Assembly: GCA_903839205.1 (NCBI GenBank)
Contig: CAIMBM010000059.1
Span: 1 to 38,483, forward strand
DNA from: an uncultured Holophagaceae bacterium
GTDB taxonomy: Bacteria; Acidobacteriota; Holophagae; Holophagales; Holophagaceae
Reading direction: 5' to 3'
DNA: 38,483 nucleotides
The translations under genes and the position numbers were made by a program. Under the pieces are notes generated by a model. That model was given only the letters and a program-made list of their open reading frames with translations, had not been told where the DNA came from and did no database searches. Below, piece by piece: positions 3,851-7,125 of the stretch; position 1 is the first letter of the stretch; each line of letters opens with the position of its first letter.

Positions 3851-3993
<143 letters not shown>

Positions 3994-4876: not shown

Positions 4877-4964
4877 TGGCGGAGGGTGAGGGATTCGAAC
4901 CCCCGAACGCTTTCACGTCTCCAGTTTTCAAGACTGGCGCCATCAACCGCTCGGCCAACCCTCC
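4877..4964 (-). tRNA. tRNA-Ser (TGA anticodon)
   Basis: An 88-base class II tRNA. The acceptor GGAGGGT pairs with ACCCTCC, with discriminator G and encoded CCA. The anticodon stem CCAGT/ACTGG has loop CTTGAAA (anticodon TGA, reading TCN codons). It has a long variable arm and T-loop GGTTCGAATCC. It is tRNA-Ser rather than selenocysteine tRNA, because the acceptor stem is seven bases and the anticodon is not TCA. Confidence 0.95.
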
Positions 4965-5066: not shown

Positions 5067-5747
5067 CTAGGGTTTGGTGTCCCATCCCTCCGCGGCCCTG
5101 AAGCTGTGGTAACGGCCCTGGCCCAGGATCAGGTGATCGGCGAGGGGCACCCCCAGGGATTCCCCGGCGGCCTGCAGCCGCCGGGTCAACTGTGTGTCTT
5201 CGCGGCTGGGTGTGGGGTCGCCGCTGGGATGGTTGTGGTAGGCCAGGGCCGAGGAGGCGCCGTAGCGCAGAGCCTCGCGGAAGAACTCCCTCGGGCTGAT
5301 GAGTGTGGCCGTAGTGGTTCCCTGGCTGAGGATCCGCTCGGCCAGCAGGTCGCCTTTGGCGTTCAGGGCCAGCAGGCCGAAGCGCTCCTCGGACCATCCC
5401 TGGCAGCGCGGTAGCAGGTAGGCCCCGGCGGCCCTGGGACTGGTGATGCGGGGTCGTTCGGCGGTGCACTGGGCGCGCCGAGCCAGTTCCACCGCCGCCC
5501 AGAGCTGGCCGGCCTTGGCGGGACCGAGGCCGGGCTGCTGCAGCCAGTCGTTCAGGCCCAGGCCGATGAGGCCGGCGAGGCCTCCGGTGCGACCAAGCAC
5601 CGCCTGCGCCAGTTCCACTGCGCTTTGGCCCCGGCGCCCTGTCCCCCAGAGCAGGGCCAGCAGCTCCGCGTCAGCCAGCCTTTCGCCATGTCCCGCCAGC
5701 AGGCGTTCCCGGGGGCGCTGCTCGGGGGAGAGGTCGAGAATGCGCAT
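5067..5747 (-). CDS. radC: RadC family JAB/MPN protein
   Basis: A 226-residue RadC-family protein. Residues about 1-95 are the helical N-terminal region with a helix-hairpin-helix-like part (LQQPGLGPAKAGQL). Residues about 100-226 form the JAB/MPN domain with a complete JAMM zinc site HNHPSGDPTPSRED (His171, His173, Asp184). The historical DNA-repair role is not well supported, but radC is often competence-induced. It starts at ATG 5747 with AGGAG eight bases upstream. It follows the comEA/pseudopilin genes on the same strand after a 111-bp gap, which fits a transformation link. Confidence 0.92.
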   Translation of the reverse strand: MRILDLSPEQRPRERLLAGHGERLADAELLALLWGTGRRGQSAVELAQAVLGRTGGLAGLIGLGLNDWLQQPGLGPAKAGQLWAAVELARRAQCTAERPRITSPRAAGAYLLPRCQGWSEERFGLLALNAKGDLLAERILSQGTTTATLISPREFFREALRYGASSALAYHNHPSGDPTPSREDTQLTRRLQAAGESLGVPLADHLILGQGRYHSFRAAEGWDTKP

Positions 5748-5858: not shown

Positions 5859-6305
5859 TCAACAACGGGTCCAGGTACCCAGCCGCGGCCGGTAGCGCAG
5901 CAACTCCACGGATCCGGACAGATCCAGGAAGAGGCAGAGGGCCTCCTGGCCGTGGTGCAGGAACCACACATTGGCCAGGGCCCCGCGCTGGGGCATGACC
6001 GTGATGGGGTGTGGATCACCCCCTCGCCAGCCGCTGTCCTCTAGACTCGGCGGAAGGGGGACGGCCGGGGGTCTACCCCAGCGGACTCCTTTGGGTAGTC
6101 TCACGGCGATTCGTCCCTCCGCGGGCTGGCGGCGGGGTTCCAGCACCACGGTGCGGTGATGGAGGGAGGCCAGCCGGAAGGCGAGGCGAAGGCTGCGGTC
6201 CAGTTCGACCCGGGCGGCCCGGAGGGGTCGGCAGAGGGGCGAGGGCCAGAGGGCGACCGCGATCCGGGTGACCTGCTGGAGGAAGGTGGCTCCAGAGGCG
6301 AGCAT
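5859..6305 (-). CDS. Pseudopilin paralogue lacking the prepilin cleavage motif
   Basis: A 148-residue protein whose ATG (6303-6305) overlaps the stop of the preceding pseudopilin gene as TGATG, so the two are translationally coupled. It is homologous over most of its length to that neighbour: compare VRWGRP with VKWGKP, then DPHPITVMP with SHPIITVTP, FLHHGQEALC with FLNDGQEALC, and LGTWTRC with LGKWSRV. Its N-terminus (MLASGATFLQQVTRIAVALW) has no G-x(4)-E prepilin motif and only a short hydrophobic stretch. It may be a minor pseudopilin exported another way, or a decaying duplicate. Arg-rich composition is notable. Confidence 0.7.
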   Translation of the reverse strand: MLASGATFLQQVTRIAVALWPSPLCRPLRAARVELDRSLRLAFRLASLHHRTVVLEPRRQPAEGRIAVRLPKGVRWGRPPAVPLPPSLEDSGWRGGDPHPITVMPQRGALANVWFLHHGQEALCLFLDLSGSVELLRYRPRLGTWTRC

Positions 6306-6805
6306 CACACCCTCGACCACTTGCCGAGGCTTCGGCGCCAGCGCAGCACTTGAAGATGTCCTTGGCCGGAGAGGCGCATGCACAGGGCCTCCTGGCCATC
6401 GTTCAGGAACCAGGCACTCGCCAGGGCGGTGTGCCTCGGTGTCACGGTGATGATGGGGTGGGATTCGCCGGTTTTAGCCGCCACGGGTGAGTCCATGTCG
6501 GGGGGATACGGGATGTGATCGGGCTTGCCCCATTTCACATGGCGACCCAATTGCACCGGCAGGTGCTCTCCCGCGCCGCTGGAATGGCCCAGCGCCACCT
6601 TGACATCGGTACCCCGGGCGCGGGCCAGGGTGAAGGCCTGGTACAGGCTCCCCACGATCTCCTGGTGAGCCGCCGACAGCTCGATGCTTCCCTCGTCGAG
6701 GCAGAGGGTGGACATGGCGCCAAGGATCACGAGCACGGCCATGACCACGGTGAGTTCCAAGAGGGACGAGCCCCGCTGGTGGAGCTGCCTAGAATCCCGA
6801 CCCAT
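6305..6805 (-). CDS. GspH/FimT-type pseudopilin
   Basis: A 166-residue type IV pilin-like protein. The N-terminus has a short basic leader and a class III prepilin motif G12-SSLLE, giving Glu at +5 after cleavage, followed by the hydrophobic helix LTVVMAVLVILGAMS. The C-terminal part is a GspH-like globular domain. Such minor pseudopilins prime type IV pili or competence pseudopili at the inner membrane. It starts eight bases after the comEA stop and is coupled to the downstream paralogue, giving a likely operon comEA - pseudopilin - pseudopilin. Confidence 0.85.
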   Translation of the reverse strand: MGRDSRQLHQRGSSLLELTVVMAVLVILGAMSTLCLDEGSIELSAAHQEIVGSLYQAFTLARARGTDVKVALGHSSGAGEHLPVQLGRHVKWGKPDHIPYPPDMDSPVAAKTGESHPIITVTPRHTALASAWFLNDGQEALCMRLSGQGHLQVLRWRRSLGKWSRV

Positions 6806-6813
6806 GGCCGCAC

Positions 6814-7125
6814 CTACTTCTTCGAGACCGCAGGGGCCTGCACGGGCGCCGTGGACAGGAAGGGCTTGAGCTTGGCGAAGGCCTTCTCGCCGATCCCCTT
6901 GACGTTCATCAGCTCCTCGGACCTCTGGAAGCCGCCATGCTGCTTCCGGAAGGCGATGATCCGTTCGGCGGTCTTCTGCCCCACCCGGGGCAGCTGCATC
7001 AACTCGGTGACCGTCGCCGTGTTGAGATTCACCGGCCGCTGCGGCGCACGGGGGGCGCGGTCAGGGGCGGCGGCGAGGGGGAGGGCGAGCCCGAGGACCA
7101 GGGATGTGAAGAAGCGATGGGACAT
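6814..7125 (-). CDS. comEA: ComEA-like helix-hairpin-helix DNA-uptake protein
   Basis: A 103-residue exported protein. The signal peptide (MSHRFFTSLVLGLALPLAAA) is followed by a tandem helix-hairpin-helix domain at about 32-92, with VNLNTATVTELMQLPRVG and a second LMNVKGIGEKAF hairpin. This is the minimal ComEA form of Gram-negative bacteria. It binds incoming dsDNA in the periplasm and acts as a ratchet during natural transformation. GGAGG lies five bases before the ATG. It is first gene of the leftward cluster with two pseudopilins, with radC following. Confidence 0.9.
   Translation of the reverse strand: MSHRFFTSLVLGLALPLAAAPDRAPRAPQRPVNLNTATVTELMQLPRVGQKTAERIIAFRKQHGGFQRSEELMNVKGIGEKAFAKLKPFLSTAPVQAPAVSKK

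Follow-up and report, generated by a model that had tools for sequence, protein, structure and literature searches.

A pilin head without a prepilin start, encoded beside an intact prepilin gene in the comEA locus of Geothrix

Why would a duplicated pseudopilin gene keep its place in an operon, its coupling to the parent gene and its C-terminal domain after the signals that make a prepilin have gone? The locus that raises this question lies on the minus strand of the window, by which we mean the whole stretch of 38,483 nucleotides of Holophagaceae DNA that was analysed. A sequence-only reading of this DNA had assigned the first gene to comEA and had coupled the two pilin-like genes, here called g1 and g2, through TGATG; the profile matches listed below uphold the assignment, and the letters of the junction uphold the coupling and the order comEA, g1, g2. 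The features are as follows.

6814..7125, minus strand: comEA-like gene for a secreted helix-hairpin-helix DNA-binding protein of 103 aa (Pfam HHH_3, E 1e-23; NCBIfam TIGR00426 over its cut-off)
6305..6805, minus strand: g1, a minor-pilin-like prepilin of 166 aa with a predicted GspH/FimU-like fold (G12/S13...E17, the slash marking cleavage; orthologues in the family)
6303..6307, minus strand: TGATG overlap of the g1 stop and the g2 start, the same junction in all intact orthologues
6310..6314, minus strand: GAGGG, a possible g2 ribosome-binding site 4 bases before the ATG (read from the sequence)
5859..6305 (stop included), minus strand: g2, a "headless" pilin paralogue of 148 aa plus stop
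6246..6284, minus strand: g2 residues 8-20, a putative amphipathic helix that replaces the membrane helix of the pilin (helical moment; predicted helix)
5862..6224, minus strand: g2 residues 28-148, the conserved pilin head (remainder of alpha-1 and the beta sheets)
5067..5747, minus strand: radC, the next gene (PF04002, E 1.1e-36)

The g1/g2 junction reads GAGGGTGTGATG. The AGGG ahead of TGATG is kept in most relatives and precedes radC too in genomes without g2. Downstream of radC, two tRNA-Ser genes (gct and tga; window 3901-3993 and 4877-4964) lie close together on the same strand.

The product of g1 has the cleavage motif RG/SSLLE (G12, E17) followed by a hydrophobic membrane helix, and the earlier statement that only the first of the two proteins has G-x4-E and a pilin helix is correct, g2 having neither. 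Residue +5 of the motif, counted from the alignment of 36 g1 proteins, is glutamate in 28 and aspartate in 8; seven of the eight G-x4-D proteins (L012, L014, L019, L022, L024, L027, L028 and L050) come from a clade devoid of g2, and the eighth, L050 (G. rubra), is from a g2 carrier. Pfam N_methyl matches 27/36 g1 proteins at E <= 0.1, the g1 of the window scoring 19.8 bits, below the cut-off of 21.2. A PDB profile search with g1 gave only rows at E >= 0.049, in which geopilin, PilA and other pilins were mixed with unrelated proteins, and when the class was searched with the g1 profile, one weak match turned up beyond the family.

That g2 is a duplicate of this pseudopilin follows from its local alignment with g1, which holds 49 identities in 123 columns and scores far above shuffled sequences (208 versus 29 +/- 4.9, with a maximum of 67 in 1000 shuffles). 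The further proposal that the two are paralogues over nearly their whole length stands in part: profile-profile comparison (E 1.3e-27) aligns 120 columns, from Leu28 of g2 and Leu43 of g1 to both ends, whereas g2 residues 1-27 are not detectably related to g1. The homology thus spans 120 of the 148 g2 residues and begins at mature residue 31 of g1, counting from S13. In all 25 distinct intact g2 proteins (that of the window and 24 from relatives), translation begins at the junction ATG and yields 145-148 aa; a normal prepilin start, which would have made the window copy a local error, was found in none of them. N_methyl matches none of the 25, a prepilin peptidase motif with a hydrophobic helix is likewise absent from them, and a PDB profile search with g2 returned nothing relevant. 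Judged from these orthologues, the loss of the prepilin start is real and not a frameshift.

Two candidate signals near the start of g2 were rejected. A few members, the window included, show G-x4-Q there; G-A-T-F-L-Q in the window, considered as a G-x4-E motif with E changed to Q, was put down to chance, with glycine in just 6/25 members. A lipobox, L-A-S-C, occurs in L016 and L018 (with a similar sequence in L040) and is not conserved; it may explain the weak lipoprotein-motif matches of 2/25 g2 proteins, presumably these same two.

What stands in place of the leader and membrane helix is only mildly hydrophobic. The best 9-residue hydropathy mean averages 1.67 over the 25 g2 proteins, versus 2.86 for g1 and 2.75 for ComEA signal regions (n=11), and by hydropathy g2 has no transmembrane segment; the same measure speaks against a signal peptide in most of the 25 and is borderline in six. 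Insofar as g2 has no transmembrane helix by this measure, the earlier suggestion of a soluble second protein gains support. The six borderline members (L017, L021, L023, L025, L026 and L051) have a longer hydrophobic stretch, with best 9-mers of 2.0-2.5; in L006, L009, L011 and L050, charged residues break the stretch up. Residues 8-20 have a mean helical moment of 0.566 versus 0.292 +/- 0.085, peaking at 100 degrees and reached by 0/2000 joint column shuffles, a count flattered by the choice of this segment after the sequences had been viewed. A helix is predicted over residues 3-19 with a pLDDT of about 60. The simplest reading is that the N-terminus of g2 forms an amphipathic helix lying on a membrane or packing on a protein. 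No origin of the first 27 residues was detectable in the N-terminus of g1 (E 0.24) or in that of RadC (E 0.36), the latter having been considered because tandem duplication could have produced a radC'-g1' fusion, which would account for the ATGCGC starts. Since the g1 head is expected in the periplasm and g2, devoid of a convincing signal peptide, on the cytoplasmic side, a direct partnership of the two would need an export route; none was found for g2.

AlphaFold models of the two proteins (mean pLDDT 83.0 for g2 and 80.4 for g1) point to a common fold. In VIA-align comparisons, rows 1-6 for g2 and rows 1-4 for g1 are EpsH, FimU, GspH and XcpH structures. For g2, EpsH ranks highest (Z 8.2 and 8.1; best alignment rmsd 3.3 over 102 residues), followed by FimU (7.7), GspH (7.1) and XcpH (6.9), the best non-pilin reaching 4.8; for g1, FimU gives Z 8.8 (rmsd 3.1 over 107 residues), with the best unrelated row at 5.2. 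Foldseek placed FimU first for g1 at E 0.023, returned nothing significant for g2 and gave no match at E <= 0.001 for either model. Pfam GspH/FimT (PF12019) matches neither protein, nor anything else in the whole genome, at E <= 1. Because a fold match is not accompanied by a PF12019 match, we describe g1 and g2 as having a GspH/FimT-like fold and leave them outside PF12019; as modelled, both resemble GspH/FimU minor pilins.

The distribution of g2 is restricted to one genus, taken to be Geothrix, a bacterium of soil and sediment, from its named members (Geothrix species, G. limicola and G. rubra among them, alongside Holophagaceae metagenome bins). The gene occurs in 28/47 genus genomes (26 intact) and in 0/30 other genomes of the family; g1, counting strong full or partial matches, occurs in 41/47 and 20/30, respectively. 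Twelve of the 41 g1-bearing genus genomes are without g2, and in G010, whose partial g1 lies at a contig end, the status of g2 cannot be judged. Both g1 and g2 are frameshifted in G004. In G011 (L110, L109), some 30 g2 codons follow g1, and a separate contig carries the head next to radC; the letters after these codons read as repeated coding resembling phage tail-fibre, and either inserted DNA within g2 or a faulty assembly may explain the split. G022 and G070, genus genomes with completeness ratings of 96% and 94%, have ComEC but no g1 orthologue.

At 18/19 loci of the other genera, the start of radC follows the stop of g1 at a distance of -1 to +2 bases, often via the same TGATG, which argues that the junction is older than g2 and that g2 was inserted into it. 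A tree of four proteins from 52 loci places g2 in early-branching Geothrix, and the loci L107/L111/L112 and L113, devoid of g2, are nested in it among carriers and represent losses. For an eight-locus clade without g2, loss is preferred and not proven (AU p 0.124; 39/52 sequences kept). In a domain tree, all 25 g2 proteins form a single clade with support 100; it sits at the end of a long branch, and the tree does not place it among g1 (support 67, 54 and 49). Taken together, the gene orders and trees indicate that a truncated g1 copy was inserted in an old g1-radC junction and later lost in places. In L114 and L115, from genomes without g2, 96 bases separate g1 from radC and open with a copy of the ATGCGCAT radC start. 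Several genomes keep g1 and ComEC without g2, so that g2 must be dispensable.

Where it is retained, the g2 head evolves under constraint. The median omega-like ratio is 0.37 for g2 and 0.34 for g1 (300 pairs), and the first 26 columns of g2 change with near-silent-site freedom (pN 0.43 versus pS 0.47); by these substitution ratios, purifying selection on the head domain equals that on g1 in strength. Judged against 40 Geothrix g1 proteins and 17 from other genera, g2 has fixed residues of its own, for example L41, P57, G92, W93, P98, N112, H118, L129 and P140 (25/25), and C148 is present in 23/25, being absent from the early-branching L045 and L050. The core common to both proteins comprises A42, F43, W76-G77, P85, W114-F115, G119, C124 and W145. 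Once corrected for ahcY, evolutionary distances of g1 and g2 show the strongest correlation among the ten gene pairs compared (partial r 0.645 in 19 of the 25 genomes), with g2 and radC second (partial r 0.47). The g1-g2 correlation is the sole hint of a functional link beyond adjacency, and a shared genomic position could produce it too.

The head is also strongly basic, with a mean charge of +9.7 and a pI of 11.4 in the 25 g2 proteins; the g1 head averages +7.6, and 26 long open frames of the window have a median charge near 0 per 100 residues. In Legionella FimT, DNA is bound through an arginine patch, binding being carried by the C-terminal region with the motif GRxR (PMC8897410). The g1 of the window ends in GHLQVLRWRRSLGKWSRV, which is basic and has no GRxR, and g2 ends in GSVELLRYRPRLGTWTRC, likewise devoid of that motif; over the last 16 residues, g2 is less basic than g1 (+1.7 versus +4.4). 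ComEC is encoded in 66/77 family genomes, this one included, and this genome further encodes a prepilin peptidase and three secretins. The comEA-g1 setting, together with ComEC, the prepilin peptidase and the secretins, makes a DNA-uptake pathway plausible. The literature searched yielded no relevant work on competence in Geothrix or Holophaga.

Comparison with known systems places FimT/FimU/GspH (FimU 4IPU, EpsH 2QV8/4DQ9, GspH 2KNQ) closest to the g1 and g2 models in fold, and the likeness extends to a small pilin in a competence setting and to the arginine-rich C-terminus of g1. The two proteins differ from this group in having no PF12019 match, the g1 of the window in having no exact GRxR, and g2 in having neither prepilin leader nor membrane helix. 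By analogy, the nearest precedents of g2 itself would be Geobacter PilA-C and gonococcal S-pilin. PilA-C (GSU1497) is a pilin head without the pilin helix, provided with a signal peptide, whose gene adjoins that of PilA-N (GSU1496) (PMC5174107, PMC11046646), much as g2 lies directly beside g1; however, PilA-N has no head and PilA-C has a signal peptide, whereas g1 keeps its head and g2 has a putative amphipathic helix instead. S-pilin is a soluble PilE head released by proteolysis after mature residue 39, a cleavage that supports transformation (PMC4877100). It thus begins nearly where the homology of g2 does (residue 31), but is a product of proteolysis of an exported pilin, whereas g2 has a gene of its own. 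In the literature searched, no description of a headless pilin paralogue adjoining an intact pilin was found.

The sequences show much of the course of events. The family has the order comEA-g1-radC, with translational coupling between g1 and radC. Geothrix and its close kin carry a copy of the g1 head in this junction, where it has taken over the TGATG start; a 27-residue stretch keeping just an amphipathic helix has replaced the leader and membrane helix, and the head, under purifying selection, has gained fixed residues of its own. The copy was kept and reshaped by selection after the loss of its anchor, and the pilin head probably acts now as a soluble protein. Such a g2 should be neither cleaved by prepilin peptidase nor packed into a pilus; it would be made in step with g1 and either remain soluble or attach through its amphipathic helix to the cytoplasmic surface of the inner membrane. 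Less surely, the basic, FimT-like-fold g2 might serve the ComEA/g1 uptake pathway, whether it holds nucleic acid or, from within the cytoplasm, exerts control over g1 or over the assembly of the pilus; that the basic head handles DNA or controls the pilin is most likely, but is a guess with modest support. Overall, we tentatively favour g2 as a functional, headless FimT/GspH-like paralogue of genus-level distribution, coupled to g1, soluble or docked on the inner membrane and with a role in DNA uptake with ComEA and g1, and hold this view at a little less than an even chance.

Three points count against this view: the last 16 residues of g2, in the region to which FimT owes its DNA binding, are less basic than those of g1; C124, together with the newly gained C148 at the C-terminus, resembles the FimU disulphide and would fit the periplasm better; and g2 is dispensable, several genomes retaining g1 and ComEC without it. 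The cysteine pair favours the chief rival explanation, which we regard as unlikely on balance, namely that g2 is exported as a periplasmic soluble head, in the manner of PilA-C or S-pilin, and caps or decorates tips that contain g1 or binds DNA beside ComEA, with a C124-C148 disulphide stapling its tail. In FimU, the disulphide joins Cys127 of beta-6 to the penultimate Cys158 (PMC8897410), a pattern matched by C124 in strand 121-127 and C148, conserved in 23/25 proteins, after the last strand; the six members with a longer hydrophobic stretch and the signal peptide of PilA-C, encoded beside a helix-only pilin (PMC5174107), point the same way. Yet L006, L009, L011 and L050 have no plausible Sec signal, charged residues interrupting the stretch, the conserved feature of the N-terminus is its amphipathic pattern and not a hydrophobic core, and two early-branching lineages (L045, L050) have no C148.

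It is rather improbable that g2 serves RadC or general DNA metabolism, its pilin head having been borrowed as a basic nucleic-acid-binding module. The insertion of g2 between g1 and radC, the second-best correlation of its distances with those of radC and its strongly basic head agree with such a role, but radC is coupled to g1 where g2 is absent, so that the cluster is older than g2, and the correlation of g2 with g1 exceeds that with radC. Frameshifting at the junction that would fuse the frames into some two-headed g1-g2 pilin is very improbable: in many genomes the g2 frame does continue without a stop codon on the upstream side of its ATG (giving open frames of up to 444 aa), but at this G+C such frames are a common occurrence, the junction shows no slippery run, and a good ribosome-binding site and the ATG are kept. 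We give hardly any credence to g2 being a local frameshift, a wrong start or a decaying pseudogene; the frameshifts of G004, the split gene of G011 and the lineages that lost g2 might suggest decay, but start and length are the same in 25/25 distinct intact orthologues and the head is under purifying selection.

If g2 is indeed a functional soluble or docked head, its implications would reach beyond this locus. A leader and a membrane helix define pilins, and with both lost from g2, a lineage that keeps the head alone, coupled to its parent and bearing fixed residues of its own, would show a new use of the fold. It is conceivable, if doubtful, that in DNA uptake one and the same pilin fold is at work outside and inside the inner membrane, with g1 outside as a pilus subunit and a docked g2 inside as an acceptor or regulator. 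The protein would offer a natural soluble head with which to probe the function of FimT-like heads outside a filament, and its locus may provide a first starting point for the study of DNA uptake in Acidobacteriota.
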